Part shown: positions 4,498-36,697 of the stretch, piece by piece
How positions within the stretch are numbered: position 1 is the first letter of the stretch
Layout: every line of letters starts with the position of its first letter
NCBI RefSeq assembly: GCF_037023745.1
Contig: NZ_CP146101.1
Coordinates: forward strand, 7,482,001-7,546,000
Length of the DNA: 64,000 nt
DNA from: Streptomyces sp. SCSIO 30461
GTDB taxonomy: Bacteria > Actinomycetota > Actinomycetes > Streptomycetales > Streptomycetaceae
Direction of reading: 5' to 3'
Program-made: the position numbers and the translations under genes
The notes under the pieces: generated by a model
What the model saw: the letters and a program-made list of their open reading frames with translations, nothing else
Told to the model about the DNA's origin: nothing
The model's database searches: none

Positions 4498-4911
4498 ATG
4501 TTCCGGGTGCTGATGTTCTTGGTGCCGCTGGCGCTCAGCATCTACGCCTTCATCGACTGCATCTCCACGGACGAGAAGGAGATCAGGTACATCCCCAAAC
4601 CGATCTGGGCGATCCTCGTGCTGCTGTTCCCGCTCGTCGGGTCGATCTCCTGGCTGATCGCGGGGAAGGACCGGTCGGCGCGGCGCCCTTCGCGGCGCGG
4701 CGGCGGCGGCGGATGGGTGGCGCCGGACGACAATCCGGAGTTCCTGAAGTCGCTGGGTGACGAGAACCGCCAGGCCAAGGACGTCGAGCCCGGCCGGGAA
4801 CGGGACGGCGAGCGGAGCGGCGAGCAGGGCCCGGGGCGCGACGAGGACAGCGCTCGCGAGCAGGAGCGACGCAGGCGGGACGGCGGCGAATCCGGCGGTG
4901 GCCAGGCCTGA
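4498..4911 (+). CDS. PLDc_N-type small membrane protein with charged tail
   Basis: The 137-residue protein has two membrane helices in the first 60 residues ([20 protein letters not shown] and [20 protein letters not shown]) with the loop [14 protein letters not shown]. This is the PLDc_N (phospholipase D N-terminal) motif often found as a stand-alone actinobacterial protein. The rest is a hydrophilic Glu/Arg/Gly-rich tail with no fold visible. No catalytic HKD motif is present, so it is not a phospholipase. A GGGGG lies 7-8 nt before the ATG. Role unknown. Confidence 0.8.
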
Positions 4912-5052
4912 CGAGGGCCGTCCGGCTGACCGGCTGACCGGCTGACGAGAGTCGGCCCGTCTGGCGCCTGACTCCCTGCTCCTGACCGGGTCTCATCGCC
5001 CGAAGCCGCGTCGCTCTGGCATCCGGCGCCGCCTGCGCGGGACAGTGGGCGC

Positions 5053-13709: not shown

Positions 13710-15022
13710 GCGGTGGCCTCCGCGGCGGCGCGGGCGGCGGCCGGGAGCGCCGCCGCGATCCGCTCGATCGCCGCGTCGTCATGGGCGGTCGACACGAACC
13801 AGGATTCGAAGGCGGACGGCGGGAGGTAGACGCCCTGCGACAGCATCGAGTGGAAGAAGGCGTTGAAGCGGAACGCCTCCTGCTTCCGGGCATCGTCGTA
13901 GTCGCGCACCTCGTGCGCGGTGAAGAAGACCGAGAACATGTTGCTCGCGGTCTGCAGCCGGTGCGCCACGCCTTCCTCGGCGAGCGCCTCGGTGACGAGT
14001 GCCTGGATCCGCCGGGAGGCCGTGTCGACCTTCTCGTACGCCGCGTCGTCGAGAAGCCGCAACTGGGCGAGGCCCGCCGCGGTGGCGATCGGGTTCCCCG
14101 AGAGGGTGCCCGCCTGGTAGACCGGCCCGGCGGGGGCGAGGTGGCCCATCACATCGGCCCGGCCGCCGAACGCCGCTGCCGGGAAGCCGCCGCCCATGAC
14201 CTTGCCGAAGGTCATCAGGTCCGGCACCACCCCGTCGACGCCGTACCAGCCGGCCTTCGAGGTACGGAAACCGGTCATGACCTCGTCGGAGATGTACAGG
14301 GCGCCGCTCTCGGCGCAGAGGTCCTTCAGCCCCCGGTTGAAACCGGGCAGGGGCGGGACCACGCCCATGTTGCCCGGGGATGCCTCGGTGATCACACAGG
14401 CGATCTCACCGGGGTGCGCGGCGAAGGCGGCACGAACCGATTCCAGATCGTTGTACGGCAGCACGATGGTGTCCCCGGCCTGTGCGCCGGTGACACCGGG
14501 GGTGTCGGGCAGCGCGAAGGTGGCGACCCCGGAGCCCGCCGCGGCCAGCAGCGCGTCCACATGGCCGTGATAGCAGCCGGCGAACTTGACCACCTTGGCG
14601 CGCCCGGTGAAGCCGCGGGCGAGCCGGATCGCCGACATGGTGGCCTCCGTGCCGGACGAGACGAGCCTCACCTGCTCGACCGGTGCGACCCGGGCCACGA
14701 TCTCCTCGGCGAGCGTGACCTCGCCCTCCCCCGGCGTACCGAACGAGGTACCACGGGCAACAGCCGCCTGAACTGCGGCAACGACCTCCGGGTGGGCATG
14801 TCCGAGGATCATCGGACCCCACGAGCAGACAAGATCGACATATTCGCGGCCATCCGCGTCGGTCAGGTACGGGCCGGCACCGGACACCATGAACCGGGGC
14901 GTACCGCCCACGGCACGGAAGGCGCGGACCGGAGAGTTCACGCCGCCGGGCGTCACGAGGGACGCGCGGTCGAAAAGCGTCTGCGAAACTGGGGCGTCAT
15001 AGGGAAAGCTCACGGAATCCAT
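13706..15022 (-). CDS. hemL: glutamate-1-semialdehyde 2,1-aminomutase
   Basis: Starting at ATG 15022 the protein is 438 residues, the usual GSA-AM length. Signatures: [19 protein letters not shown], the PLP phosphate region [16 protein letters not shown], Asp246 in [12 protein letters not shown] and the Schiff-base Lys274 in [19 protein letters not shown]. It converts GSA to 5-aminolevulinate for haem, sirohaem and B12. It pairs with HemA (59891-61261), which makes GSA from glutamyl-tRNA about 45 kb away in this window. The frame stays open upstream of 15022 but without homology. Confidence 0.95.
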
Positions 15023-15290
15023 GGTGTCAGAGGCCCCAGGCGTTCTTGCGGACAGGTGTTTCACCACCCCTCCGCGGGGGAGGTCACTGTCACGATGATC
15101 GGGTTGCGCGGCCTGCGCTGTGCGTCATAAAAAGCAGTCGGGTGGAGATATGCATCGCGGTGGCGGACCGGGCGAGGGTACCGACGACCTGGGTCCCGAG
15201 CCTGCCCGGCGGGGGAGGCACCGGCGGCACGGGTCCCCCGAGCCCGTGGAGAGCACGCGCGAGCCCGTACAGAGCAGGAGTGGCCGAGGC

Positions 15291-15728
15291 ATGGGGGTCA
15301 CATACAGATACTTCGGCGCCCCCGACGGCGCCACGGCCGCCCGTGTGCCCATTTCGATGCGCCCGGAAGAGCTCGGCGGGGACGAGCTCGGCATGGGCGG
15401 GATGTTCAGCAAGATCAAGCCCGAGACGATAGCCGCGATGGTCCTCACGGGCATCCAGGGGATGCCCCTCAACAAGGTGCCGCCGCTGGAGCTGGTGGTC
15501 CTGCACCCGGACTACGCGGTGGTCAAGCTCCCCATGACGGTCGTCGACCCGCTGCGCGACATCGGCGAGGAGACGGTCGGCGCCGCCGCCTTCATCTGGT
15601 CGACGGTCCCGGACCGCGGGGGGCCGCGGGACGCTTTCAACGTGTACCAGCTGCTGCACGAGTGGCAGGACTTCAGCCACCGGCTGCATGAGGCGGGGCA
15701 TCAGCCTTATTGCCTTGTATGGCCGTGA
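15291..15728 (+). CDS. conserved small protein; integration target of the mobile element
   Basis: A 145-residue protein I cannot assign to a named family. It starts MGVTYRYFGAPDGATAARVP and ends HEAGHQPYCLVWP. An alternative ATG at 15150 has a good GGTGGAG signal and would add 47 low-complexity residues. The last 25 codons (15654-15728) contain attL: codons before the 23-bp core are host-like, while those after it (CCT TAT TGC CTT GTA) use A/T-ending codons and come from the element. The protein sequence is nonetheless restored exactly, so the gene survives integration. Function unknown. Confidence 0.8.
   Translation: MGVTYRYFGAPDGATAARVPISMRPEELGGDELGMGGMFSKIKPETIAAMVLTGIQGMPLNKVPPLELVVLHPDYAVVKLPMTVVDPLRDIGEETVGAAAFIWSTVPDRGGPRDAFNVYQLLHEWQDFSHRLHEAGHQPYCLVWP
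15684..15706. other. attL core (23-bp direct repeat, left copy)
   Basis: The 23 bp from CTGCATGAGG to GCATCAGCC recur exactly at 36675-36697. The flanking 75-bp windows (15654-15728 and 36645-36719) match at 65 positions, and all ten differences are third-codon-position synonymous changes. The core is where codon usage switches from host-like to element-like, which marks the crossover. Confidence 0.9.
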
Positions 15729-15794
15729 GCTGGGGTTTCTTGCGGATCGGGCGGGGTCTTCGGGCCTCGCCCCTGTTGGTGCCGGAGGGGGCCG

Positions 15795-17141
15795 TCAGGC
15801 GGCCAGGGCACATTGAGGGCACATTGGTTTTGCTGGGGGTGCTGATGTGCCCTGGTCGGCGGGCGGGTCGCCGTCGTCTTCCGCCTCGGCTTCCGTTTCC
15901 GTGAAGGCGTCGTCGATCGCCTTGCGGGTGCGGGTCTCACTGGACGGCAGCAGGTGCGTGTACGTCCGCAGCGTGAAGCCCGGGTCCGAGTGGCCGAGGT
16001 ACTCGGAGAGCGCCTTGATGCTCTCCCCTGCATCCAGGAGCACGGAGGCGTAGGCGTGACGTAGAGCGTGCATGCCGTCTTCCGGGGCCGCTTGGAGGTA
16101 GCGCGCGCCGCGCTCGCGGGGAGGGATCACGCCGGCGGCGGCCAGGGCGCGCTTCCAGTCGCCCATGTTGAAGACGCTCCGGTTGTACGCCCGCTCCTTC
16201 GCGTCGACGAAGAGGAGGCGCAAGGTCTTCGGCTCGCCGTCCGGTTTGGCCCAGGGCAGGGTGACGGCGGTCGGCGGGAACTCCTTCATGTGAGCCTTGA
16301 TGGCTGCGGCGAGCTGGGCCGACAGGGGCACTGACCGGATCTTGTTGCCCTTGGGCAGGGCGAAGACGGGCTTCGTACCGACGAGCCGTACCTGACGGTT
16401 GACGTGTATCCAGCCGCCCTTGAAGTCGATGTCCTCGACGGCGAAGCCGAACACCTCGCCCTGGCGAAGGCCGCAGCCGAAGGCGAGCTTGCCGCCAGCC
16501 TGGAAGCGCTTCGGGAGTCCGGCTATCACGGCGAGTACGCGCTCCAGCGGCCAAGGGATGATCCTCTTCTTGGTCGCGGTCGGCAGCTTGACCGACTTCG
16601 CCTTGCAGGGGTTCTTCGGCAGCAGCCCGTCCTCCACGGCCATGCCGAGGATGCTGGAGAGGATGTCGAAGATGCCCTCGATCGTCGACACTTCCAGTTC
16701 GGCGTCCTGCAGCGTGCGAATCCAACCCTGAATGATCGAGGGCTGGTTGAGGGACCGCAGCTCGCGTCGGCCGAGGTGCTCGACGATGTGGTTGCGGACG
16801 GTCGCCTCGTAGCGGAGCGCGGTCGTCGGGCCGACGGAGTTCGCATCGAGCCACTTCTGCGCGTAGGCACCGAGCGTCTGCTTCGTCTCGGCGGGGACGA
16901 CGTAGGAGCCGCGCCGGATCTCGACGTCGACCTCGGCGGCGCGATTGTCCGCCTCGGCCTTCGTGTGGAAATTCTCCTTGCGCTGCCGGCCGTCAAGGTC
17001 GCGGTAGCGGACTTGCCAGCGCTTGCCGACACCGTGGTCGGCGGTGGCGACCATCTGCCGTGTACGGCTCTTGTGTTCGCCGCACTCGGCCTCGGCGGGC
17101 TTGGGGTGGGACTTGTGCCAGCGGTCGTACACGTCAGCCAA
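15795..17141 (-). CDS. int: tyrosine recombinase (integrase) of the element
   Basis: I place the start at TTG 17141 because a perfect AGGAGG lies 6 nt upstream and the resulting N-terminus MADVYDRWHKSHPKP is the usual one for Streptomyces element integrases. Length 448 residues. An Arg/zinc-like N-terminal arm-binding part (GEHKSRTR.. VGKRWQVRYRD) is followed by the core-binding domain (about 75-165). The catalytic domain has Arg in GCGLRQGEVFG, HALRHAYASVLL (H-x-x-R), the third-box His in LGHSDPG, and the nucleophile Tyr in TLRTYTHLL. It is adjacent to attL, as expected for excision control. Confidence 0.95.
   Translation of the reverse strand: MADVYDRWHKSHPKPAEAECGEHKSRTRQMVATADHGVGKRWQVRYRDLDGRQRKENFHTKAEADNRAAEVDVEIRRGSYVVPAETKQTLGAYAQKWLDANSVGPTTALRYEATVRNHIVEHLGRRELRSLNQPSIIQGWIRTLQDAELEVSTIEGIFDILSSILGMAVEDGLLPKNPCKAKSVKLPTATKKRIIPWPLERVLAVIAGLPKRFQAGGKLAFGCGLRQGEVFGFAVEDIDFKGGWIHVNRQVRLVGTKPVFALPKGNKIRSVPLSAQLAAAIKAHMKEFPPTAVTLPWAKPDGEPKTLRLLFVDAKERAYNRSVFNMGDWKRALAAAGVIPPRERGARYLQAAPEDGMHALRHAYASVLLDAGESIKALSEYLGHSDPGFTLRTYTHLLPSSETRTRKAIDDAFTETEAEAEDDGDPPADQGTSAPPAKPMCPQCALAA
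15805..15853. repeat. left arm-type integrase binding sites
   Basis: AGGGCACATT occurs at 15805-15814 and 15816-15825 (11-bp period) and inverted as ATGTGCCCT at 15845-15853, all within the last codons of the integrase gene. The same AGGGCACAT pair with the same 11-bp period occurs at 36517-36536 near attR. Paired repeats inside both ends are what tyrosine integrases of the lambda type bind with their N-terminal domain; this role is inferred. Confidence 0.75.
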
Positions 17142-17800
17142 GAAGGGCCTCCTGGATGGGGTTTGGGGACTGGGGGCGGCGTGGGTCGCGGCGGTGTGCG
17201 TCAGCCACGGGAGCAGCAGGGCTGTGGGAGGAGCGGCGAACTGGTGCTGGGGCCGGCTGGCACGAGGCGTGGGTGCTCGATGGCGCGGGCGGCGTGGAGG
17301 CCAGCGGGGCCTATTTCGACAGGTCGGTTGGGCATGACAAATAGCTGTAACTTGCAGGCGACCGTCGTGGCAAGAGTTAGTTCTTAAACTCTCCAAAAGT
17401 CGCCCGGAGGCGAAGTGGTGTTCGTCTCGTCAAATTCCGGCACATCACGAGCCGTTTTGGCGGGGAGGTTGTGCTACCTTCCCTCCGCGTCAAAGAATTG
17501 GGCGATTTGAGCGACTATCGGATATAATGTCCACTGGGCAAGCCGCGCCACTTCTCAGCACTGGGCGCCGCCTCTGAGCTGCTGAGGTACCGGATTCCAG
17601 CACCTCAGCCGTTCACTTCGCCGCAGAAAATTTCAGTTTCCATGGGAGCGATTTCGGCAACCGGGGATCCGCCCTTACTGTTTTGGTCTTCCCCGGCGAC
17701 ACCGAGGGAAGTGTCCGGGAGTTCCAGAATTCACTCTGGACGCTTCCCAGGCGGTGTGGATGTGTTGCCCACGCCTGCCATCCAAAACCCTGATTCCGAT
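17142..17800. promoter_or_regulatory. 659-bp intergenic control region between int and xis
   Basis: No gene is supportable here. A TATAAT at 17523-17528 with TTGGGC at 17498-17503 (19-bp spacing, longer than ideal) is the best promoter candidate and points towards the excisionase. Downstream, CTCAGCA 17554-17560 can pair with TGCTGAG 17580-17586, and CTGAGGT 17582-17588 can pair with ACCTCAG 17602-17608. The two hairpins overlap and are mutually exclusive. The tract 17330-17560 is A/T-richer than its surroundings. Confidence 0.45.
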
Positions 17801-18034
17801 ATGGAGACCTCATTGCCGAACCACTCCCCGCGCCCTGTCGGCGCCGAGCGTGACCAGCTCGCCACTCCCGCCGACGTAGCCGCGTACCTCGGGGTACCGG
17901 TGAAGACCCTCTACCAGTGGAAGTACCGGGGCATCGGCCCCAGCGTCCACAAGGTCGGCCGTCACCTGCGCTACCGCTGGCGGGAGGTGGACGCATGGCT
18001 GGACGCCCAGACGTCGTACGACCTCACAGCCTGA
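17801..18034 (+). CDS. xis: excisionase/HTH DNA-binding protein
   Basis: A 73-77-residue MerR-like winged helix protein: TPADVAAYLGVPVKTLYQWK, then RGIGPSVHKVGRHLRYRW and REVDAWLDAQ. This is the standard excisionase/plasmid HTH of actinobacterial elements that bends att DNA to favour excision. The ATG at 17801 lacks a ribosome site. TTG 17813 has GGAGA ending 5 nt upstream and gives 73 residues; since int and the relaxase also use TTG, it may be the true start. Separated by a hairpin from the DUF3631 gene downstream. Confidence 0.85.
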   Translation: METSLPNHSPRPVGAERDQLATPADVAAYLGVPVKTLYQWKYRGIGPSVHKVGRHLRYRWREVDAWLDAQTSYDLTA

Positions 18035-18182: not shown

Positions 18183-19868
18183 ATGGAGGACTCTACGTCC
18201 CCCAGCACCACGAACACCTCGCCCACCGGCTGGCCCACTCCCGCGGTCCCCGGCGAGGGCGTCCCCTGGCGCCGCCAGGATCAGCAGGACACACGGTCCC
18301 CCGCGTCGGGGACCGTCGAGCACTCGGCGCATGTGGAAGCACACGGGGACCGTCCCCAGCCGCCTACAGATGCCGCTTTTGGGGACCGTCCCCGCGAAGT
18401 GCCCGCTGCTCGGTCCCCGCACGTCCCGGTCCCCGTATCAGCATCCGACACAAACCCGCAGGCCAGCGGCATGAAATCGGGGACCGATCCCCAAGAGACG
18501 GCAGTTGCACCAGGGGACCGTGAGCACGGTCCCCGCCAGTCTCTGGGGACCGATGGTCCCGCTGCGGGGACCGTCCAGCCGGAGGGGACGGGTCCCATCG
18601 ACGCGCGACCGGATCACGAGGCCGGTCCCCGGCCTTCTCGGGGACCGTCAGACCCCGTGAAACGGGGTTCCGGTGAAGGTGCGGAACTACTGGATGAGTT
18701 GCGGGCGGCCATCGGCAAGTACGTCGTGCTGCCCAGTGACGAGGCGCTGACCGCGGTCACCCTGTGGGTGGCTGCCACGCACATCCAGACCGCTCTGCAG
18801 CACGCGCCTCGTCTGGCAGTCGTCGGCCCGACGAAGGGCTGCGGCAAGTCCCGCGTGCTGGACGTGCTCCACGAGACCGTCCACCAGCCGATCATGACGG
18901 TGAACATGTCCACGGCGGTACTCTTCCGCGTCATCGGCAAGAACCCGCGCACGATCCTGGTGGACGAAGCCGACACCATCTTCAGCAAGGCCGGCGACAA
19001 CGAAGAACTGCGCGGTCTGTTGAACGCCGGACACCAGCGCAACCGGCCCGCCTGGCGCATCTCCGGTCCGGAGCACAAGCCGACCCCGTACCCGACCTTC
19101 GCCATGGCCGCGCTGGCCTCGATCGGCGACCTGCCCGACACAATCACGGACCGGGCGGTCGTGCTCCGCATGCAAAAGCGCAAGCCGGGCGAGAAGGTGA
19201 CCCCGTTCCGCTCGCGCTACGCCACACCACAGCTGAACGCGCTCCGGGACAAGCTGGCCGCCTGGCTGGGCCCGCTGCGCGGCACGGCCGGCCGCATGGC
19301 GCCGACCATGCCGGTGGAGGACCGGGCGGCGGACACCTGGGAACCGCTGGTCATCATCGCCGACCTGGCCGGCGACCACTGGCCCGCGAGCGCCCGTGCG
19401 GCCTGCGTGGCGATGACCCGGTACGAGGCCGTCAAGGACGAGCAGACCAACCTGAAGACGCGGCTGCTGCGCGACATACACCGCATCTTCGAGGCACACG
19501 GCAACCCCGAAGCCCTGTCCTCCCTGGATCTGGTCACCACCCTGCTCCAAGACCCCGACGCACCCTGGGCAGAGCACGGCACCAACGGGCTCAACGCCTA
19601 CCACCTGGGCAGAATGCTCCGGGACTTCGACATCCGCCCGGCCAACTACCGGTTCGACAAGGGCAGGCAGGCCAAGGGGTACGCCCGTAACCGGTTCCTC
19701 GACAGCTGGGCCCGACACTGCCCCGACCTCACCGACACGGCGCCCGCCCCCGCGCACGACGCCACACCCGCGCACCTGCCAGCCCAGGGCAAGCCGCCCA
19801 CCGCCCCGGCGGGCCAGCTGCCCATCTGCCTGCCCGGCGGCCCCACCGGCCCCAAACGCGCCCGCTGA
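18183..19868 (+). CDS. DUF3631-type P-loop ATPase (replication-associated)
   Basis: A 561-residue protein. Residues 1-160 are low-complexity and disordered and are encoded by the repeat array at 18244-18647. From about 165 the globular part begins: a Walker A-like VVGPTKGCGKSRVLD, Walker B ILVDEADTIF, and the C-terminal DUF3631 region to about residue 525 (LGRMLRDFDIRPANYRFDKG). The family occurs on actinobacterial plasmids and integrative elements, often as or beside a primase, and is presumed a helicase-like replication protein; biochemical role is inference. GAGAGGAA sits before the ATG. Ends in a Pro/Ala tail. Confidence 0.85.
   Translation: MEDSTSPSTTNTSPTGWPTPAVPGEGVPWRRQDQQDTRSPASGTVEHSAHVEAHGDRPQPPTDAAFGDRPREVPAARSPHVPVPVSASDTNPQASGMKSGTDPQETAVAPGDREHGPRQSLGTDGPAAGTVQPEGTGPIDARPDHEAGPRPSRGPSDPVKRGSGEGAELLDELRAAIGKYVVLPSDEALTAVTLWVAATHIQTALQHAPRLAVVGPTKGCGKSRVLDVLHETVHQPIMTVNMSTAVLFRVIGKNPRTILVDEADTIFSKAGDNEELRGLLNAGHQRNRPAWRISGPEHKPTPYPTFAMAALASIGDLPDTITDRAVVLRMQKRKPGEKVTPFRSRYATPQLNALRDKLAAWLGPLRGTAGRMAPTMPVEDRAADTWEPLVIIADLAGDHWPASARAACVAMTRYEAVKDEQTNLKTRLLRDIHRIFEAHGNPEALSSLDLVTTLLQDPDAPWAEHGTNGLNAYHLGRMLRDFDIRPANYRFDKGRQAKGYARNRFLDSWARHCPDLTDTAPAPAHDATPAHLPAQGKPPTAPAGQLPICLPGGPTGPKRAR
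18244..18647. repeat. array of 8-bp repeats GGGGACCG, both orientations, inside the DUF3631 gene
   Basis: Exact GGGGACCG starts at 18308, 18345, 18381, 18479, 18513, 18545, 18566 and 18640. The reverse complement CGGTCCCC starts at 18244, 18294, 18411, 18427, 18527 and 18623. There is also a near copy at 18584. Two copies extend to the palindrome GGGGACCGTCCCC. The copies fall in all three reading frames and both orientations, so the repeat is conserved as DNA, not as peptide. Candidate iteron-type origin, clt-like or operator array. Confidence 0.9.
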
Positions 19869-19894: not shown

Positions 19895-20014
19895 GCGTCG
19901 CATCCGTCCCCGCGCAGGTCAGCGCGGGGACGGATGTCCTCACCGGGACGGACTTCTCCGTACCTGCCCGAGTGTCCGTACCTGCCCTGACCAGGCATGG
20001 GACGGATGCGACGC
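19895..20014. repeat. competing inverted repeats and direct repeats upstream of mobC (oriT candidate)
   Basis: CATCCGTCCCCGCGC (19901-19915) forms a perfect 15-bp stem with 19922-19936 over a 6-nt loop. The overlapping GCGTCGCATCCGTCCC (19895-19910) is perfectly complementary to 19999-20014. Only one of the two can form at a time. Between them lies a direct repeat TCCGTACCTGCCC at 19957-19969 and 19975-19987. Such clusters before mobC/relaxase genes commonly mark transfer origins; the shorter hairpin could also terminate transcription of the upstream ATPase gene. Confidence 0.7.
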
Positions 20015-20055: not shown

Positions 20056-20658
20056 ATGCACGAACAGCACCACGAACACCCCATGCCCCAGGAACAGATG
20101 GCCACCACCCCCGTCACACGCGCAGCAAGTTGTCGGGTAAGGAGTCCTTACCCGACCCCCGCCCCAGAGGAGGCGGAGGCATCCGGCGCAGGGGCACCGG
20201 AGTCGACCGGCCCGGGGGAGCCGACCGGGACTGGGGGCAGCGAGCCGTCGTCGAGCGTGCCGCGGCAGCCGGCGCAGCGTCGCCGTCTGCGTGACAAGCA
20301 GCTGCGCGAGCACCGCGTCCACCCCCGCTACAACGACGACGAATTCGCCCTCGTCCAGAACGCCGCCGCCCTGAGCCGCATGCAGCCCGGCGGCTACGTC
20401 GCCGAGTGCGCGCTCGCCGCCGCCCGTGCCGACGACCCCACCGCAGCCGTCGCCGACTACCGCGCCATGGTCAAGGCGCTGTTGGCCGCCAACCGGCAGC
20501 TCGGCGGTATCGGCAACAACCTCAACCAGCTCACATGGCACCTCAACAGGGACGGCTCCTGGCCCCACCCCGACACCGTCCAACGGCTCCTGGAGCGCGT
20601 CGAGGCATCCATCGCCGAGGTGGACACCGCCGTCGCCCAGATCACCGAGGGGCGGTGA
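20056..20658 (+). CDS. mobC: MobC-like relaxosome accessory protein
   Basis: The ATG at 20056 has GGAG 8 nt upstream. The first ~75 residues are Pro/Ser/Gly-rich. The C-terminal domain (RRLRDKQLREHRVHPRYNDD, QPGGYVAECALAAA, RQLGGIGNNLNQLTWHLN) is a MobC/ribbon-helix-helix-type pattern with the typical GxNLNQL box. MobC proteins open DNA at oriT for the relaxase encoded 4 nt downstream. 200 residues. A perfect 12+1+12 palindrome lies in its 5' coding part. Confidence 0.88.
   Translation: MHEQHHEHPMPQEQMATTPVTRAASCRVRSPYPTPAPEEAEASGAGAPESTGPGEPTGTGGSEPSSSVPRQPAQRRRLRDKQLREHRVHPRYNDDEFALVQNAAALSRMQPGGYVAECALAAARADDPTAAVADYRAMVKALLAANRQLGGIGNNLNQLTWHLNRDGSWPHPDTVQRLLERVEASIAEVDTAVAQITEGR
20132..20156. 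repeat. perfect 25-bp palindrome in the mobC coding sequence
   Basis: GTCGGGTAAGGA (20132-20143), a single G, then its exact reverse complement TCCTTACCCGAC (20145-20156). The arms are rich in A/T for this DNA and encode part of the unstructured N-terminus (CRVRSPYPT), so the symmetry is likely functional at DNA or RNA level (oriT hairpin or MobC operator). Confidence 0.85.
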
Positions 20659-20662
20659 GCCA

Positions 20663-22339
20663 TTGATACCGAAGATCATCCTCGGCAAGGGGCCCCACGC
20701 CACACGCCGCACGATCGGCTACCTCTTCGGCAAAGGCCGGGCCAGCGAACACATCGACCCGCACCTGGTGGCCTCCTGGAACGACTTCGCCCCCGACCCT
20801 GGCCGCAGCCCCCACCGCGACCCCAAGGACGTGGAGGCCCAGCTCGCCGCACAACTCGACCAGCCCGTGAAGATGCTCGGCGACAAAGCACCCAAGCACA
20901 CCGTGTGGCACTGCCCCGTCCGTGCCGCCCCCGAAGACCCGATCCTCACCGACACCCAGTGGGGGGATATCGCCCGCCGGATCGTGGCCGCCGCCGGCAT
21001 CGCCCCCGAAGGCGACGAGGAAGCCTGCCGCTGGGTGGCCGTCCGCCATGCCGACGACCACATCCACATCGCCGCCACCCTCGTACGCCAGGACGGTCGC
21101 CGCCCCCAGCGCGACTTTGACCAGCGGGCCGTCCAGCGCGAAGCCCGCCAGATCGAGGTCGACTACGGACTGAGGCGACTGAAGCCGGGCGACGGCACCG
21201 CCGCCAAACGCCCCACCAGCAAGGAGCACTTCAAGGCCAAACGCCTGGGCCAGGAAGCGGCCACCCGCGAGATCCTGCGCCTGCGGGTCCGCCGCGCCGT
21301 CGCCGCCGCGGCCGACGAGGCCGAGTTCTTCGCCCTGCTGGACGCCACCGGCGTTGCCGTGCGCCTCAAGCTCGGCCCGTCCGGCGACGCCCTCGGCTGC
21401 AACTTCGCTCTGCCCGGCGACACCAATGACAAGGGCGAGCCGGTCTTCTACTCCGGCTCCACGCTCGCCCCCGACCTCTCCCTCCCCAACATCCGCCAAC
21501 GCCTCGTTACCACCAGCCCCGAACCTGTCACCGTCCGCCCGGGCAACCTGTGGCACCAGGCCACCGCCGCCACCGAACGCATCCCCTACCACCTCACCCA
21601 CAGCGACGACCCCACGGCTCACGGACAGCTGGTCGCGCTCGGCGCCGCACTGGACCTCCTGCCGGCCACCGGACCGGCGGTGCTCAAGGCCGAACTCGAA
21701 CAGGCCGCGGCCGCCTTCGAGCGCGCCACCCGCTCCCGCATCGCCGCCGACCTCGACAGCACACGCGTCCTGCGCCGCAGCGTCCAGGCGATCTGGCGCG
21801 ACCGCCCCCAGGACAGGGACGGGGCCGGATTCGCGATGCTTCTGGATGCCGCACTCACCGCGGTGGCGTTCGCGATTCACTGGCACCGCATCCGTCAGCA
21901 CGCACAGCAGGAGGCGGCAGCCGAGCAGGCCCTCCTCCACTTGCAGGTGGCGTACGCGCAGGTCGCCGAGCCGGTCCTGGTCGGCCTCGCCAGCCGGGCG
22001 CCCAGCCCGCAGACCAAACTCCGCTTCGCCCACCACCTCCAGCAGGCGGTACCGGAACACTCCGAGCGCATCCTGGCCGACTCCGCCTGGGACGCACTCG
22101 CCACCGTGCTCGCCGAGGCCGAAGCAGCAGGACACAACGCAGCCACCGTCCTCGACCAGGCGCTCGGACAGCGCACCCTGGATGACGCCCACAGCCCCGC
22201 CCGCGCACTGACCTGGCGCATCCGCCGCCTCGGCGAACGCCATCCGCCCAGTCCACGAGCCGAGGCAGCCCGGACTACGCCCGTCCAGCCTGCGGCAGCG
22301 GCTCCTCCCTCACAGCCCCATTCGGCACGGCGGCGCTGA
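20663..22339 (+). CDS. relaxase/mobilization nuclease (MobA/VirD2-type)
   Basis: A TTG at 20663, 4 nt after the mobC stop with AGGGG/GGTGAG upstream, gives MIPKIILGKGPHATRRTIGYL, the usual relaxase N-terminus; the frame remains open upstream only as overlap with mobC. The metal-binding motif III appears as VRHADDHIHIAATLVR (H-x-D-x-H-x-H pattern). The strand-cleaving residue in the N-terminal 30 residues is likely the Tyr of TIGYLFGKG. 558 residues; the C-terminal half is a helical Ala-rich region of unknown role. Cuts oriT and pilots DNA during mobilization. Confidence 0.88.
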   Translation: MIPKIILGKGPHATRRTIGYLFGKGRASEHIDPHLVASWNDFAPDPGRSPHRDPKDVEAQLAAQLDQPVKMLGDKAPKHTVWHCPVRAAPEDPILTDTQWGDIARRIVAAAGIAPEGDEEACRWVAVRHADDHIHIAATLVRQDGRRPQRDFDQRAVQREARQIEVDYGLRRLKPGDGTAAKRPTSKEHFKAKRLGQEAATREILRLRVRRAVAAAADEAEFFALLDATGVAVRLKLGPSGDALGCNFALPGDTNDKGEPVFYSGSTLAPDLSLPNIRQRLVTTSPEPVTVRPGNLWHQATAATERIPYHLTHSDDPTAHGQLVALGAALDLLPATGPAVLKAELEQAAAAFERATRSRIAADLDSTRVLRRSVQAIWRDRPQDRDGAGFAMLLDAALTAVAFAIHWHRIRQHAQQEAAAEQALLHLQVAYAQVAEPVLVGLASRAPSPQTKLRFAHHLQQAVPEHSERILADSAWDALATVLAEAEAAGHNAATVLDQALGQRTLDDAHSPARALTWRIRRLGERHPPSPRAEAARTTPVQPAAAAPPSQPHSARRR

Positions 22340-22894
22340 TCACGGCCGCGCGGACGCCTTGGGAGTGAGCAGCTCCAGCGCTTCCTCCCAGCAGTAGCGG
22401 TCTGCCCCGCCGCCGGCCTTCGGCCGGTGCGGCTCGTACGAACCGATCAGGACGCCCATCTCGCGCAACCGCTCCAGACTCTGCCGGTACGCGGGATGGG
22501 CGGCCTGGGCTGAGTTCACGTACGGCAGGACGGCAGTGGGGAGGCCCATGCCGTACGCCTCGCACAGGATGCCCAGGGCCAGAGTGTCGGATATCCCTGC
22601 CGCCCACTTATTGACGGTATTGAAGGTGGCCGGGGCCACCGCGATGGCGTCGGCGGGTGGCAGCGGGCGAGGATCGTCGGGTGAGCGCCAGGCCGATCGG
22701 ATCGGGTAGCCGGTCTGGGCCTCGACCGCCTCCGTGTCGATGAAACCCAGACCCTGCGGGGTGGCCACCACGCCCACGTCCCAGTTCGCCTCTTGAGCAG
22801 CCGTGATCAGCTTGCCGACGTCGCCGACGACACCGGCCGCGCAGACGACGACGTACAGGAACGGCTTTTTGCCCGGCGCCTGCGGTTCGGTCAC
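22340..22894 (-). CDS. flavoprotein (Dfp/EpiD-like decarboxylase family)
   Basis: GTG 22894 with a GGGGGG run upstream gives a 184-residue protein MTEPQAPGKKPFLYVVVCAA. The FMN-binding Rossmann-like pattern is seen in VVVCAAGVVGDVGKLITAA, the AVAPATFNTVNKWAAGISD segment (the APAT-N-x-A-G motif of the HFCD flavoproteins) and PYVNSAQAAHPAY. Known relatives decarboxylate cysteine residues in PPC or lanthipeptides, but the substrate here is unknown. It overlaps the WbqC gene by 4 nt and belongs to a four-gene same-strand cassette ending with it. Confidence 0.85.
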   Translation of the reverse strand: MTEPQAPGKKPFLYVVVCAAGVVGDVGKLITAAQEANWDVGVVATPQGLGFIDTEAVEAQTGYPIRSAWRSPDDPRPLPPADAIAVAPATFNTVNKWAAGISDTLALGILCEAYGMGLPTAVLPYVNSAQAAHPAYRQSLERLREMGVLIGSYEPHRPKAGGGADRYCWEEALELLTPKASARP

Positions 22895-23709
22895 GTGAAG
22901 CCCCCCAGAAGCAGTTGGTCTCGTTGGGCCGCCAGCATGGCGGCCAGGACTTCCGGTCCGATCTGGCTCAGCGCCCACAGACTGCTGATCCCTCGGGACC
23001 ACCGCCAGAGTGGGTCTTCCGTCTCCACAGGAGTGTGGAAAGCCAGCACCGGGATGCCGTGGGCATCGAACGGAGCCGGGTCGAGGTAGCGCCAGCCACC
23101 CGTGCCGCAGAGATAGTGGGTACTGCTCGTGGCCACGGCCAGGTCTGCGAGCCGTTCTGATCGGCCTTCCCGAGTCGGGATCGTGCTGCTGTCCAGTACT
23201 TCGCCGCTCCAGCCAAGTGCGGTGAGCAGCGTGATCGTCGACGCCCTGGCGATGCCGGAGACGCGGTCGGTGGTCTCGAACTGATCGAGAACCGCGTCCA
23301 GGACCCCACGCACCGCTGGCCAGTGGCGGCTGCGGCCGTAGTACTGGCGAATCAGCAGGCTGACGGTGCGACGGGAGCGGCTGGGGTCGGCGAGCCGCGC
23401 CCGGCTGATCAGTGTCGTGCGCCCATCGGGCAGGTGCGTGGGGAGCGTGAGCCACTGCTGCCTGGCGGGGCTGTCCAGGGCTGCGAGCCGAGCCCGGTGC
23501 TGATAGTCGCGCCGGGCGAACTGGACGTCGTCGAGGACGATCCACCGGCCGGCGGCGTACAGCTTCGCCAGAGTGGACAGCCGCGGGAACAGGTTCGGTT
23601 GGTGGATCGCGCACACCCCGCCCGGCGAACCAGCGTGGGACAGGTCAGGTGCCGATGAGGCGGCTGTCGAATCCGTCGCGCAGAAGGCGCTCGTAAGCGT
23701 CATACACAT
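22891..23709 (-). CDS. WbqC-family protein
   Basis: The core starts GGVCAIHQPNLFPRLSTLAK and continues with LDDVQFARRDYQHRARLAAL, a clear WbqC signature; conserved His and Asp residues imply a metal or nucleotide-binding enzyme. WbqC proteins occur in O-antigen and natural-product loci and their chemistry is poorly known. With the start at ATG 23709 the gene overlaps YdcF by 65 nt. GTG 23616 would remove the overlap but also part of the N-terminal lead, so the start is uncertain. 272 residues as given. Confidence 0.8.
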   Translation of the reverse strand: MCMTLTSAFCATDSTAASSAPDLSHAGSPGGVCAIHQPNLFPRLSTLAKLYAAGRWIVLDDVQFARRDYQHRARLAALDSPARQQWLTLPTHLPDGRTTLISRARLADPSRSRRTVSLLIRQYYGRSRHWPAVRGVLDAVLDQFETTDRVSGIARASTITLLTALGWSGEVLDSSTIPTREGRSERLADLAVATSSTHYLCGTGGWRYLDPAPFDAHGIPVLAFHTPVETEDPLWRWSRGISSLWALSQIGPEVLAAMLAAQRDQLLLGGFT

Positions 23710-26684: not shown

Positions 26685-26787
26685 CCCGCGCTTGGAGAAG
26701 GGATCCACCGGCCGAGCGGGCAGCCAACCTGATCGCCGCCCACCACCAGGCCCGACCAACCCCTCGCACCCACCTCGTGGAGGTCCC

Positions 26788-27948
26788 ATGATCGAGACGA
26801 ACACCAGCGCCAAGAGGCCGAGGCGGAAAGCAGCTCCGCAGCTCGTGGCCAGCCCGTTTCTCGCCCAGTACCTCCTAGTCCAGCCCGGCCGGGCGGCCGG
26901 CGTGCGCATCCCGGAGGTCCGCTACGAGGAGCTGTGGGCCGCGGGCGCGGAAGGCCGATCCGTCCCGGACTGGCTGGCCGACGCGGCGCGGGAAGCGTGG
27001 GGGACCGAGTTGCCCGCGTCGCCGGTCGGTGATGTCGTCCTCGTCCGCGAGCGGTCCCGGTACGGGTACGGCAAGGCGTCATGGGAGATCAACCTCGGCT
27101 GTGACTACGACTGCGAGTTCTGCTACCTCGGGGAGAAGCGGTTCGAGGGCCTGGACTGGGCCGGTAAGCAGGCGCTGCTGCAGACGCTGAGGGACGCCGG
27201 TGTCTTGTGGTTGCAGATCACCGGCGGTGAGGCGCTGATCGACCGCGAGTTCGGCGCGGCGTACGAGTACGCCCACCAGCTCGGGATGATGGTCCAGGTC
27301 TCGTCCAACGGTTCCTCGCTGCGGAAGCAGCCGATCCGGGACCTGTTCGCCCGCCACCGGCCGTACCGACTGACCCTGAGCGTCTACGGAGCCACCGCCG
27401 AGACGTACGACAAGGTGACGCGGAACCGCGGGGCGTTCGGCCGGTTCCTGATGGGCCTGGACGCCGCCCGCGAGGACAGGTTGCCGGTCCGCCTGAACGT
27501 GATCGTCTCGGACGGCAACGCGCACGAGACAGACGCGATGGTGTGCCTCGCGAAGTCGTACGGCTTCCCGCACCAGGTCTTCACGAACATGTCGCCCACG
27601 ATCGATGGCGAGGCGAACCCCCTGGCGACGCAGGCACTGGACCATCTCAAAGCCCGTAGCGTCTTCACCGGCTGCAACGCCGGCCACACGTTCTTCCACG
27701 TCAACCCGCACGGCATCGCGTCGATCTGCAAGGTCGGTCGCGACCCAAGCGTGAACCTCATCACTGAGGGCGTCGAAGCCCTCCCCCGACTCGGCGCGGT
27801 CGCCGAGTCCCTACAGCTCCGCACCGGTGGATGCTCCGGCTGCACGAAGGTCGGCACGTGCCGCACGTGCCGACCGCTGGCCAGGCTCTACCAGGAGGCG
27901 GGGGACCGACGAGAGCTCTACTGCCAACATGGAGGTTACGGATCATGA
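26788..27948 (+). CDS. radical SAM enzyme, probable RiPP-modifying
   Basis: A 386-residue protein with GGAGG before the ATG. The 4Fe-4S/SAM motif is INLGCDYDCEFCYLGEKRFE (C-x3-C-x2-C), with GGEALIDREF as the SAM-binding GGE. A C-terminal cysteine cluster (CSGCTKVGTCRTC and later YC) resembles a SPASM/twitch auxiliary cluster. The N-terminal ~90 residues could hold a recognition element but no clear RRE is seen. Its stop overlaps a 70-residue peptide gene ending CSCSAGDDQPY, so peptide modification is the natural hypothesis. Confidence 0.85.
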   Translation: MIETNTSAKRPRRKAAPQLVASPFLAQYLLVQPGRAAGVRIPEVRYEELWAAGAEGRSVPDWLADAAREAWGTELPASPVGDVVLVRERSRYGYGKASWEINLGCDYDCEFCYLGEKRFEGLDWAGKQALLQTLRDAGVLWLQITGGEALIDREFGAAYEYAHQLGMMVQVSSNGSSLRKQPIRDLFARHRPYRLTLSVYGATAETYDKVTRNRGAFGRFLMGLDAAREDRLPVRLNVIVSDGNAHETDAMVCLAKSYGFPHQVFTNMSPTIDGEANPLATQALDHLKARSVFTGCNAGHTFFHVNPHGIASICKVGRDPSVNLITEGVEALPRLGAVAESLQLRTGGCSGCTKVGTCRTCRPLARLYQEAGDRRELYCQHGGYGS

Positions 27949-28272: not shown

Positions 28273-29082
28273 GTGTCCATGTCCCGCATCCCCTTCGAAC
28301 AGCTACCCGCCGACGTCCGCCGAGCCGTCGCCGACAAGAGCGGCGCCGTTCACCAAGCGGTGACCGTGCAAGGCGGCATGAACTCCGGCATCGCCTCCGT
28401 CCTGGCGACGAACGGCGGCCGGGTCTTCGTGAAGGGCATCCCGGCCGACCATCCCCAGGTCGCTGCCCAACGCCGCGAGGCAGCCGTCGCTCCGTACCTG
28501 CCGGCATCCTGTCCACGCCTGTACTGGCACCTGGAGTTCGGCGGCTGGAGCTTGCTCGGCTACGAGGTGATCGACGGCCGCCACGCCGACTACACGCCAG
28601 GCTCACCCGACCTGCCGCTCGTGGAAACCGCGCTTGTCGAACTGCAGGGCCTTGCAGCGCCCGCCGGCATTGGGATCAAGGACGCCGTCGACCGGTGGGC
28701 GGACTACGCACCGCCAGGTACGCTGCACTACTTCGAGGGCAACACTCTCCTGCACACCGACTTCGCCCCGGACAACGTCCTGATCACCGGTGCCCGCGCA
28801 CGACTCATCGACTGGGCCTGGCCGACGCGAGGGGCGGCCTGGATCGACCCCGGCGCACTTATCCTCCAGCTCATGGACGCCGGGCATTCGGTGGAGGAGG
28901 CCCTCGCCTTCGCAAGTCGGTTCTCGTCCTGGCGGGACGCAAAGGCCGAGGCACTCGCGGCCTTCAGCTTGGCCACGGCGGCACTGTGGCGGGAGATTGC
29001 TGAAGTGGAGCGGACACCATGGAAGTTGGGGATGGCGAAGCGAGCGGCGGAGTTCGCGCGCGTCCGGGACTGGGCCCTATAG
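28273..29082 (+). CDS. APH-fold phosphotransferase
   Basis: GTG 28273 has GAGGAA 6 nt upstream, giving 269 residues. The kinase catalytic loop is LLHTDFAPDNVLI (H-x-D-x4-N) and the metal-binding Asp lies in RLIDWAWPTRG. Relatives phosphorylate aminoglycosides, choline or homoserine, but no substrate is indicated. In this position it might act on a product of the radical SAM cassette or be an unrelated resistance gene; there is no evidence for either. The terminator upstream suggests partial separation. Confidence 0.82.
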   Translation: MSMSRIPFEQLPADVRRAVADKSGAVHQAVTVQGGMNSGIASVLATNGGRVFVKGIPADHPQVAAQRREAAVAPYLPASCPRLYWHLEFGGWSLLGYEVIDGRHADYTPGSPDLPLVETALVELQGLAAPAGIGIKDAVDRWADYAPPGTLHYFEGNTLLHTDFAPDNVLITGARARLIDWAWPTRGAAWIDPGALILQLMDAGHSVEEALAFASRFSSWRDAKAEALAAFSLATAALWREIAEVERTPWKLGMAKRAAEFARVRDWAL

Positions 29083-29297
29083 ACGCCACGTACTGGGAAG
29101 GGGGGACGCGTTCGGACGGACTTGCCCGGCTCTCAGCGGTGCTCGTGTCGACGAGGGTGCCGGGGGCCGCTTGGGCTGGCGACGGCGTGATGTCAGTGGT
29201 GACGCCTAGGCTGGATGAGGCAAGTGTGTTGCGCCGTCAGCTCCCATCCTCTGATGCGGTCCGGGGGCGGTCGGCCCGTTCGAATCCGAGGACAACC

Positions 29298-30290
29298 ATG
29301 CAGCTCGCCGACCATTTCAATGAGTTTTTGCGCACCACGGTGAACCTGGGCCAAGTCAAGCTCGACCTTCTCGACACCAGGGTGGAGGCGATCTACCGGG
29401 CGTTGAAGGCGGACGAGGAAATCGGCTCGCTGGTCCTGGGCAAGATTCCGCAGGGCTCATGGGCGCATCGCACGATCATCGACCCGGTCGGCGGGACGGA
29501 GTTCGATGCTGACGTGATGCTGCTGATGGCCGAGAACCCGGACTGGTCACAGAGCCCGAAGACGTATATCGAAGAGGTGTATGCGGCCCTGCATCGACAC
29601 AGCATCTACAAGGACATGCCGCACTCGCGTAAGTGCCGATGTGTGCGGCTGGTCTACAGCAACTCCATGCACGTGGACATCGTTCCTTACGTGATGCTAG
29701 TCGACGGTCGAGAGGTCATCGTCAACCGCGACGAGGACACCTGGGAGAACACCAACTCGCAGGGCTTCAGCACTTGGATGCGCACTCAGGACCAGATCGC
29801 GCAGGGGAATCTGCGCAAGGTCATCCGGTTGATGAAATTCCTGCGCGACCACAAGGGATCGTTCACCGGGACGCGGTCGGTGATCCTGACGACGCTGCTC
29901 GGCAACCAAGTCCATGCCTACAAGAAGTTCTCCGATCCGGGCTACTACCGTGATGTGCCAACTGCGCTCTTGCACATCGTCGCTGACCTGGACACCTATC
30001 TGCAGGCCAACGAGATCAAGCCCTCGGTCGCCGACCCCTCAGGGTCTGGGCTGACCTTCGACCACCGATGGGAGCAGAACACGTACTCCTACTTCCGCGA
30101 CCGCATCCACAAGCACGCCGCCGAGATCCACGACGCTTACCACGCCGAGGACAAGGACACGAGCCTACGGCTGTGGCAGAACCTTTTCGGCCCCGAGTTC
30201 AAGGCCCCGGTTTCGGCAACCAGCGGCTCCAAGTTCCCCGCGGCTGCCACCACGGTCACCGCTGTCGCGCGGCCTGGTCGCGCCGGGTGA
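29298..30290 (+). CDS. CBASS cyclic-oligonucleotide synthase (CD-NTase)
   Basis: A 330-residue SMODS-type nucleotidyltransferase: Gly53-Ser54 in IPQGSWAHRT, catalytic Asp70 and Asp72 in EFDADVML, and third acid Asp127 in MHVDIVPYV. This is the synthase that makes a cyclic di- or trinucleotide on phage infection. The C-terminus is a flexible tail ending PGRAG with a terminal Gly, as required for conjugation by Cap2. The ATG has GAGGA 5 nt upstream. Its stop overlaps cap2 by 4 nt (GTGA). Nucleotide product cannot be read from sequence. Confidence 0.92.
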   Translation: MQLADHFNEFLRTTVNLGQVKLDLLDTRVEAIYRALKADEEIGSLVLGKIPQGSWAHRTIIDPVGGTEFDADVMLLMAENPDWSQSPKTYIEEVYAALHRHSIYKDMPHSRKCRCVRLVYSNSMHVDIVPYVMLVDGREVIVNRDEDTWENTNSQGFSTWMRTQDQIAQGNLRKVIRLMKFLRDHKGSFTGTRSVILTTLLGNQVHAYKKFSDPGYYRDVPTALLHIVADLDTYLQANEIKPSVADPSGSGLTFDHRWEQNTYSYFRDRIHKHAAEIHDAYHAEDKDTSLRLWQNLFGPEFKAPVSATSGSKFPAAATTVTAVARPGRAG

Positions 30291-32050
30291 GCGGCGGCAA
30301 GAACCGACCCGCCCCGACGGACTGGCAGAGAGAGGCCCTGGCCGAGCTGCGCGAGGCCGCGGCCGAACAGCCTGACGTGCTGCGTCTGGTGGGAGTTCCA
30401 GCCCGCGGCCAGAACGGTGTGCTCAGGGTGACGCTGCGGCTTCACACAGGGCCCTTGGCCACTGCTGACGGCGGCTTGGTTCTGCAGGAGCACGAGGAGT
30501 TCGTCCTGACCTTGCCGGCCTCACCGCTGTCCGCAACCACCGTCGAAGTGGAGCACTGGAGGTTCGCCGGCTACCCGCATGTCCTCCAGGGACGCCGACT
30601 GTGCATCTTCCTGGATCCCGCCCGCGAGTGGGATCCGCTGCGCGGGGGCATACGGGCGTATCTGAACCGGCTGTGGTCCTGGCTGAGCGACGCGGCAGCG
30701 GGCCAGTTCAACGCATCAAAGGCGATGTACCACGCCGTCGGCGGAGTGCTTCACCAAACGCCCGGAACCCCGACGCTGGTCGTACGCGTTCCCGGCCCTG
30801 ACCAGCGAATCCAGACTGGCTACCTGATCGCGCGCACCGAGCACCGACTAGACCTGGCCTACAGTCCGCCCCCGGAAGGCAGGGCCGTACGGGTGCCAGT
30901 AATCACCATTGCGGGAGCGCTGCCGCTCGGCGGCGGCTCAACCTTTGCCGAGCTGCTGACCTACGTGGACAACCCTCCGTTCGATCGCCAGAGGAGAAGC
31001 TCCCCGCAGGCAGTCGCCCAGTCTCCGGCGATCCTGACCACGCTCGCGGCCAGTGCGGCCCGCAACCCCGATGGCTCGCCGCAGTACCTGATCCTGGCAG
31101 TCCCGCACCCTGCGGGCGGCCCGCCCAATCTCTTGGGTGCACGTCTTCCCGCGCCTACCGCGGATGCACTGCGGCGCATGGCCCACGAGCAGGGTTCCGC
31201 GCTGAACATCGACGCCTCCCAGATCCGCCCGGACCTACTGATCGAATGGTGCCCTGTGTCCGATGAACGGCCTGCCGTGACGACACGTCGCGATGACGGA
31301 AGCCTCATCGGGGGCTTCTTGGGGAAACACGTGCATGTCTGGGGCTGCGGCGGCCTTGGCTCCTGGATCGCCGAGTTCGTCGTCCGTGGCGGCGCCTCAC
31401 AGGTGACGGTGTGCGACCCCGGAACAGTCACCGGCGGACTGCTGGTCCGGCAGAACTACGTCGAGGCTGACGTTGGAGCCTCCAAAGCCCAAGCCCTGGC
31501 CCGACGGCTGCGAGCAGTGGATGACACCGTCGCGGTCCACGTCCACGACGGCGTACTGCCCGACGCTACAGCTCTGGCAGGCGCCGAAGTCATTATCGAC
31601 GCGACCGTGAGCATTGCCATGGGCCACATCCTGGATCGCCTCGCGGCTAGCGGGGGACGCCACCCGGTCCTGGCTCAGGTAGCCACCGACACCCGCACCG
31701 GCACCTTGGGCCTGCTGAGCGTCTCCGCGCCCACCACCGCACAGGGGCCCAGCAGCATCGACACTGCCGCCGGGAAGATCGTACTGGCCGACCCCGCCCT
31801 GGAGCTTTACCACCGCCTGTGGCAGGACACCCCGGACGGCGACGAACTTGTACCAACCCGCGGCTGTTCGGTGCCCACCTTCCACGGGGCATCGGCCGAC
31901 CTGGCTGCTGTCGCCGGAACGCTGACGTCCCTCCTGGGGATGCACCTGATCACTCCCGGCTCGGGCACACATCTGATCGCGCTCCCTCACGCAGCCGGAT
32001 CGCCCCATCACCATTTCCTGGCCCACGACCCGACACCGACCACGCCCTGA
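30287..32050 (+). CDS. cap2: CBASS Cap2-like E2-E1 ubiquitin-type conjugating enzyme
   Basis: A 587-residue two-domain protein. The N-terminal E2-like part has HWRFAGYPHVL and the candidate catalytic Cys106 in QGRRLCIFLDPAREWD. The C-terminal E1/ThiF domain has the nucleotide motif HVWGCGGLGSWIAEFVV (353-360), then the Arg/Gln/Asn adenylation segment and the candidate E1 Cys527 in TRGCSVPTFHG. In type II CBASS, Cap2 conjugates the synthase's C-terminal Gly to a target to prime it. Translationally coupled to the synthase. No JAB peptidase (Cap3) gene was found nearby. Confidence 0.88.
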   Translation: MSGGKNRPAPTDWQREALAELREAAAEQPDVLRLVGVPARGQNGVLRVTLRLHTGPLATADGGLVLQEHEEFVLTLPASPLSATTVEVEHWRFAGYPHVLQGRRLCIFLDPAREWDPLRGGIRAYLNRLWSWLSDAAAGQFNASKAMYHAVGGVLHQTPGTPTLVVRVPGPDQRIQTGYLIARTEHRLDLAYSPPPEGRAVRVPVITIAGALPLGGGSTFAELLTYVDNPPFDRQRRSSPQAVAQSPAILTTLAASAARNPDGSPQYLILAVPHPAGGPPNLLGARLPAPTADALRRMAHEQGSALNIDASQIRPDLLIEWCPVSDERPAVTTRRDDGSLIGGFLGKHVHVWGCGGLGSWIAEFVVRGGASQVTVCDPGTVTGGLLVRQNYVEADVGASKAQALARRLRAVDDTVAVHVHDGVLPDATALAGAEVIIDATVSIAMGHILDRLAASGGRHPVLAQVATDTRTGTLGLLSVSAPTTAQGPSSIDTAAGKIVLADPALELYHRLWQDTPDGDELVPTRGCSVPTFHGASADLAAVAGTLTSLLGMHLITPGSGTHLIALPHAAGSPHHHFLAHDPTPTTP

Positions 32051-32138
32051 CCCATCCCATGTGCACTGGAGGATGCGCTGTCGCCAAGGCGAACGGGAAC
32101 GCAGTAACTGGCTATCGGATCGCCAGCGAGTGCCAGCG

Positions 32139-33347: not shown

Positions 33348-33600
33348 ACGTTGCCTCCCGTCTCGGAGCACGCCTGCCGGAACCATTGTGCGTTCCCGTC
33401 CACGGCCTCCTGGTACAGCCCGGTTTGATTCGCCACTCCCGACAACGACGGGGCCGGGCCTTCTGACCGCGCAACCGCTCTCGATTTCTGGGAACGATCT
33501 CCAGCAAGTCGGGAAGCAATCTTCAGGACCTGTGGTGCCGCAAGTCAGAAACATTCGTGAACAGCCTTCGACCACGCGGGCGTTCTGGGATGATGTTTGT

Positions 33601-36674: not shown

Positions 36675-36697
36675 CTGCATGAGGCGGGGCATCAGCC
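36675..36697. other. attR core (23-bp direct repeat, right copy)
   Basis: This is an exact copy of 15684-15706. Upstream of it (36645-36674) the element-derived arm encodes LHEWQDFSHR with A/T-ending codons (CAT GAA GAT CAT CGT). Downstream, to 36719, the host-derived original 3' end of the target gene resumes with G/C-ending codons (CCG TAC CTG GTG CCC TGA). Confidence 0.9.

Follow-up and report, generated by a model that had tools for sequence, protein, structure and literature searches.

An array of 8-bp repeats within a RepAM-type ATPase gene of a Streptomyces element, and its possible reading by SpdB-like proteins

The host element and its in-gene array

The window analysed here is a 64,000-nucleotide stretch of the Streptomyces sp. 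SCSIO 30461 chromosome (NZ_CP146101.1, positions 7,482,001 to 7,546,000), in which the gene order is integrase, HTH_17 gene, RepAM, MobC and relaxase. The tyrosine integrase gene lies on the minus strand (15795..17396; PF00589, E 1.9e-16), and the remaining four genes lie on the plus strand: an excisionase-like HTH_17 gene (17801..18034; PF12728, E 4.2e-11 for a longer version of the frame, 17642-18031, the start being picked by eye), a RepAM-type ATPase gene of the DUF3631 family (18183..19868; PF12307, E 1.9e-68, residues 329-511), mobC (20056..20658; PF05713 and PF21983 above cut-off) and a relaxase gene (20663..22339) with homologues 44-75% identical in 12 regions. For the window's own relaxase frame, Pfam gave nothing at 1e-3 and NCBIfam a weak match to MobB, while its homologues in three of the 12 regions (L179, L181 and L184; L numbers are our locus labels for relatives and fetched regions) matched PF03432 above cut-off. 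A 23-bp direct repeat, CTGCATGAGGCGGGGCATCAGCC, occurs at 15684..15706 and again as an exact copy at 36675..36697 (both plus strand), and this pair is the sole exact repeat of at least 16 bp between 15000-15900 and 22000-64000. These probable att repeats suggest an element of about 21 kb. The presumed element thus combines an integrase, putative att repeats, MobC and a relaxase, as is expected of an integrative mobilizable element. An inverted repeat at the 5' end of mobC, GTCGGGTAAGGA-G-TCCTTACCCGAC (20132..20156, plus strand), is a candidate oriT; among 93 entries it was confined, whole or as its core, to relatives of the window's mobC group.

The presumed element also holds a gene with a flavoprotein domain (22340-23614), a radical SAM protein with weak similarity to viperin (pVip; 26692-27948) and, according to Pfam and PADLOC, a CBASS-like set (29019-33575) made up of an oligonucleotide cyclase (29019-30290), an E1-E2 protein (30068-32050) and a SAVED endonuclease effector (32139-33575, minus strand), adjoined by an NB-ARC/TPR (STAND-like) protein (33981-36152). 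The same genome carries eight relaxase relatives on one chromosome, together with five matches to DUF3631.

Within the N-terminal part of repAM, 18244..18647 (plus strand) contains 14 exact copies of GGGGACCG, eight forward (18308, 18345, 18381, 18479, 18513, 18545, 18566 and 18640) and six reverse (18244, 18294, 18411, 18427, 18527 and 18623), spanning the first ~162 codons of a gene that encodes 561 residues. Only five further exact copies occur elsewhere in the whole window. Our recount agrees with a preliminary description of this locus in the number and orientation of the copies, in their extent of ~400 bp, and in two of them (18345 and 18381) having the longer form GGGGACCGTCCCC; mapping the units likewise placed them in all three reading frames, as it had stated. 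Where that description counted a single near copy, we found four one-mismatch copies inside the array (18350, 18386, 18485 and 18584). It had further taken the encoded segment for the disordered N-terminus of a replication-type ATPase, and the DUF3631/RepAM assignment bears this out, with disorder suggested by composition.

In 5000 synonymous-codon permutations of the N-terminus, GGGGACCG appeared 1.96 times on average and at most seven times, against 14 observed, and a null built from the codon usage of neighbouring genes (5000 runs) gave a mean of 0.68 and a maximum of five. Because synonymous shuffles reach at most seven copies, protein sequence and codon usage are insufficient to account for the array. 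Third-position GC is 0.728 in the repAM N-terminus versus 0.902 in the remainder of the gene. Across 13 close relatives, identity to the window was 94.1% at unit sites (95.7, 95.3 and 91.3% by codon position) and 83.7% at other N-terminal sites. On average an array unit survived unchanged in 8.9 of the 13 relatives and a control 8-mer in 3.1, although the conservation of single units varied from 0/13 (the unit at 18566) to 13/13. The unit sites are therefore better kept than both other N-terminal sites and control 8-mers, and the array is conserved as DNA, which the earlier description had proposed. A peptide repeat was ruled out by the three frames, the two strands and the synonymous null.

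The array among RepAM relatives and the question of the replication origin

We examined the best 80 of 101 RepAM relatives. Two of the six peptides used as queries were N-terminal, so the sample is biased towards array carriers. With a threshold of at least six copies, set by ourselves, 76 of 81 RepAM genes (the window and 80 relatives) carry GGGGACCG, CCGGACCG or GCGGACCG ahead of the ATPase part. The array is lacking in L057, which is cut by a contig end, and in L074, L075, L078 and L080, four relatives that nevertheless possess integrase, MobC and relaxase. An open frame of at least 125 codons lies ahead of the ATPase part in 74 of the 81 genes. In L053 and L072, five of six and six of ten units, respectively, fall 5' of the open frame; as these units are partly outside the frame, it is the DNA rather than the peptide that is kept. 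The GGGGACCG array of L018 and L013 is complete despite an N-terminal RepAM frame that is broken or has no early start, for which a frameshift, an assembly error or a start further downstream may be responsible.

One pair of relatives separates the unit from the neighbouring proteins. L071 and L045 share 92-94% identity over the 3.4 kb that precede the array and the 3.9 kb that follow it. MobC and relaxase are each 92% identical between the two, and a 67-residue C-terminal stretch of their ATPase parts is 100% identical, yet L071 carries an array of CCGGACCG (the B unit) and L045 one of GGGGACCG (the A unit). Since the units differ while the proteins are near-identical, the reader of the array is probably none of the ATPase, MobC and relaxase, and the units are therefore exchangeable as a block.

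In-gene origins are known from other replicons, and the preliminary description had leaned towards reading the repeats as origin iterons. On this view they would be the iteron part of a replication origin that RepAM binds inside its own gene. DUF3631 proteins are described as the RepAM initiators of AICEs, and RepAM is reported to be responsible for the autonomous replication of pMEA300 (PMC3218068). AICE repAM genes are moreover adjoined by 8-bp arrays: many AICE-type genes have one just 3', built of other units such as GGTAGCGG, TGTAGCGG and GGACGGCT. The window has a site in this place, at 19904..20005 (plus strand), with GGGACGG at 19904 (minus strand), 19927, 19945 and 19999 and CTGACC(A/T)G at 19915 and 19987, and shares both place and motif with the AICE repAM arrays. 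In the window's clade, at least two GGGACGG follow repAM in 77 of 80 genes and CTGACC(A/T)G in 79 of 80 (these counts omit L054, where the contig ends, whereas the array counts include it). The four array-less relatives L074, L075, L078 and L080 all retain the 3' site. As judged from its sequence, 19904..20005 is likely the RepAM origin region.

Because this 3' site is conserved, also in the four relatives without the array, the N-terminal array is a second cis element and is unlikely to be the RepAM origin. The array does not occur wherever the clade has repAM, being absent from these same four relatives, and it is not confined to repAM elements, since it accompanies other replication genes as well. 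Moreover, A and B arrays are found despite the 100% identical ATPase C-terminal stretch of L071 and L045. The preliminary description had named homologues with replication or mobilization intact and no repeats in this place as the case that would speak against its reading, and the four relatives are such homologues as far as gene content goes, having integrase, MobC, relaxase and 3' site. We therefore rejected origin iterons on the 3' site, the array-less relatives and the other replication modules, and consider it improbable that RepAM binds the array as its origin. Compared with the AICE RepAM module of the pMEA300 type (PMC3218068), the window has the same ATPase family and a 3' repeat site in the homologous place, but it differs in its extra in-gene N-terminal array, which is not tied to RepAM.

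Elsewhere among AICE-type repAM genes, 8-bp arrays run across or after the 3' end in L086 (12457-12621), L087 (11449-11646), L092, L096, L099-L102 and L141-L148. Often these are tandem, spaced at 9 bp, and have CTGACC(A/T)G and a far end in inverted orientation; the unit differs by group, and the arrays are probable RepAM origins. A structure model of RepAM was poor (pLDDT 43).

Recurrence of the array beside mobC and relaxase genes

A pattern of three same-strand GGGGACCG with gaps of up to 30, sought in 150 Streptomyces genomes, matched in at least 67 of them; among the matches listed, many resemble ordinary tandem coding repeats and some resemble known RepAM arrays. The corresponding search for the B unit was noisy, with matches in 129 of 150 genomes. 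From the GGGGACCG matches listed we chose 12 dense, irregular arrays by eye, skipping lookalikes of the RepAM array, and all 12 adjoin homologues of the window's MobC and relaxase. Eight of these arrays lie in SpdB-like genes (L179-L183, L186, L187 and L189), three behind an IstB/DnaC-like gene (L184, L188 and L190) and one inside a RepAM gene (L185). The three commonest near-copies, CGGGACCG, GGGGACGG and GGGGACCA, are common to the arrays of RepAM genes, of SpdB-like genes and of the IstB group (which here takes in L231, although it has a different type of gene upstream), a likeness that suggests a single kind of reader.

In the sampled elements the array stands upstream of mobC-relaxase wherever it is found, and MobC is NikA-like, as might be expected if MobC or the relaxase bound the array as an extended oriT. 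Against this, the unit is still GGGGACCG at MobC identities down to 25-33%, it changes from A to B at 92% MobC identity, and 42 of 74 relaxase elements (sample described below) have no array. Unit and proteins vary independently, and we rejected MobC and relaxase as readers, a role we regard as highly improbable.

A further candidate is suggested by conjugative Streptomyces plasmids, in which the winged HTH domain of TraB reads the 8-bp TRS repeats of clt for transfer (pSVH1 and others; PMC4170104, PMC3583192); the array could then be a clt/TRS array for the FtsK-type TraB translocase of a helper element. Repeats of about 8 bp are indeed what the two share. Unlike TraB/clt systems, the elements studied here have MobC and a relaxase, no TraB was found, and the co-varying protein is SpdB/DUF2637-like. 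No FtsK-type TraB was recognised within the element: two AICE TraB queries matched nothing in the fetched stretches of the 80 relatives, and one matched nothing in the window segment or in any of 79 relaxase regions, searches that a distant TraB would escape; the absence of TraB noted in the preliminary description is thus borne out within this scope. With no TraB match found, the clt reading was rejected, and we regard it as the least probable of the alternatives. We also dropped a likeness of the B unit to the pSVH1 TRS, as it depended on an assumed TRS sequence, GACCCGGA. In L088, a Nonomuraea AICE, a second array of seven GGTGCCAC, mostly on one strand, lies away from repAM (4851-5001) and is a possible clt.

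SpdB-like tails, orphan arrays and the proposed reading

In elements that combine an array with an SpdB-like gene, nearly all units fall inside that gene, in the linker that joins the membrane part to the tail. The label SpdB-like, which we use for all such membrane genes, rests partly on the source names of relatives; Pfam finds DUF2637 in the membrane part of L252 and L223 and nothing in that of the L180/L256 type. Across 24 array-bearing SpdB-like genes, array composition correlated with tail identity (r 0.82, reached in 0 of 2000 permutations). The partial correlation of array and tail given the membrane part was 0.78, that of array and membrane part given the tail 0.07. Correspondingly, array similarity was 0.70 where the tail was the same and the membrane part different (35 pairs), 0.35 where the membrane part was the same and the tail different (51 pairs), and 0.27 where both differed (117 pairs). 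These figures apply to 24 of 69 SpdB-like genes: 45 were dropped as below threshold, including most class-F genes, whose counts fell below it after linker trimming, and the set kept three genes with a low-complexity CCGCCCGC unit as well as L253, whose tail was mis-cut.

The same co-variation is apparent by tail class; in all these comparisons the SpdB-like genes were found by short expressions, and their set may be incomplete. Class A tails (TR.QLR..RN..L) go with GGGGACCG on three membrane types (L180, L252 and L280), class D tails (RMTRR) with GCGGACCA on two (L272-L274 and L278; L327), LSSDTLT tails (L258-L266) with CCGGTCAC or overlapping forms, and LANDRL/LSNDRL tails (L268-L270) with CGGACACC. 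Exceptions to the LSNDRL pairing are L271, with GGACAGCG instead of CGGACACC, and L267, with only four copies. Among 80 distinct SpdB-like genes, at least six GGGACCG were present with 14 of 14 class-A tails and with 6 of 66 other tails; the six comprise L324 and L326 (A-like tails missed by the expression), L327 (class D), L253 (class C), L328 (truncated) and L235 (weak). The exact B unit CCGGACCG was seen in no spdB-like gene among those examined. The SpdB-like proteins of L203, L234 and L244 have 6-8 GCGGGCGG in the linker, either low complexity or another unit class.

A structure model of the tail, of modest confidence (pLDDT 70), consists of three helices and would fit an HTH. Foldseek gave no match to it at E 0.001 or better, and of two PDB sequence searches one gave a chance-level match and the other none. 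As neighbours within spdB-like genes, linker and tail could be exchanged jointly with no functional pairing, which is the main confound of the tail-unit co-variation. Orphan arrays located in other genes speak against such joint movement as the whole story.

How often arrays are orphans was assessed in a relaxase sample of 75 full-length rows from 61 genomes, 67 taken blind and eight chosen earlier for their arrays; L206 was excluded as too short, and L257, one of the blind rows, is the same place as L186. The presence of SpdB-like genes was scored by homology count, hydrophobicity-based detection having missed most known cases. In the blind set (n = 66), 10 elements had both array and SpdB-like gene, 14 the array only, 39 the SpdB-like gene only and three neither (Fisher P = 9.4e-6); in the full set (n = 74) the corresponding counts were 15, 17, 39 and 3 (P = 1.3e-5). 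The array was accordingly present in 17 of 20 relaxase elements without an SpdB-like gene versus 15 of 54 with one, 39 of these 54 having the gene but no array. Neither array nor adjoining spdB-like gene was seen in L220, L226, L255, L074, L075, L078 and L080. The window belongs with the orphan arrays: the SpdB tail was absent from the whole window and from the fetched stretches of the 80 relatives (six frames, 16-tail profile, E 1), and the SpdB membrane part had no match in the window segment. Its unit, GGGGACCG, is that of class-A tails, and elsewhere the same genome has a class-A SpdB-like gene (L256) with 21-22 units.

From these data we propose, with a probability of roughly one half (about 0.52), that the array is a binding-site cluster for the HTH-like C-terminal tails of the SpdB/DUF2637-like membrane proteins that accompany this relaxase family, used in trans for docking at the membrane and for transfer; it would then serve transfer or spread rather than RepAM replication. 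The window's element has its array in repAM, 1.4-1.8 kb upstream of mobC, and no spdB-like gene of its own. After excision, a class-A SpdB-like protein supplied by another element would dock the excised circle to the membrane near the element's own oriT region, and the element would be transferred or spread. Counting against this reading are the 39 SpdB-bearing elements that have no array, the loci with neither array nor adjoining spdB-like gene, the want of an spdB-like gene with exact B units, the exceptions L271 and L267, and the modest tail model. A broader version, which we hold more tentatively and think somewhat less likely to be right than wrong, is a two-part docking system in which the HTH-like tail of an SpdB/DUF2637-like membrane protein reads an 8-bp unit present in many copies in the DNA that encodes the linker of that protein, and protein-less, satellite-like elements hide the array in another gene and may swap the unit wholesale for that of another protein class.

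The reader of the array might instead be a DNA-binding factor encoded by the host or otherwise unlinked, the linkers of SpdB-like genes being merely another permissive place for it. The unit is independent of the RepAM-element proteins compared, and orphan arrays show no tendency to share a genome with class-A SpdB, which also counts against our main reading. Among the 12 genomes that hold an orphan class-A array, two also have an spdB-like gene with a class-A array beside a relaxase, as do 6 of 49 others (Fisher P = 0.65, hand tally of 61 genomes). On the other hand, the unit tracks the tail class of SpdB across membrane types, and a single host strain, Streptomyces sp. ISL-12, harbours both A and B units (L058 and L067). 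We judge such a factor unlikely, though it is the most plausible of the alternatives weighed here.

Binding by SpdB-like tails would have partial precedents. SpdA2 of pIJ101 is a Streptomyces plasmid stability protein that binds short sites in its own coding region (PMC4170104), and in this it resembles the SpdB-like case; its sps sites are 12-bp palindromes in one to three copies, and the protein is small, whereas the array here has non-palindromic 8-bp units in many copies, a membrane-protein tail as the proposed partner and orphan versions in other genes. SpdB2 of pSVH1 is reported to be an integral membrane protein that binds DNA non-specifically and interacts with TraB (PMC4170104); we liken our proteins to SpdB2 by description only, and for them propose a tail whose co-variation is specific to the array.

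We found no description of such an array/tail system in the literature searched, most subscription journals being outside its coverage. The array is a case of a cis-acting element kept by DNA-level selection inside the coding sequence of unrelated genes. To our knowledge, the DNA target of SpdB/DUF2637-type proteins has so far been undefined; if the proposed reading is true, these proteins would gain a readable address code, and there would be a route by which Streptomyces relaxase elements that lack SpdB use the proteins of others.
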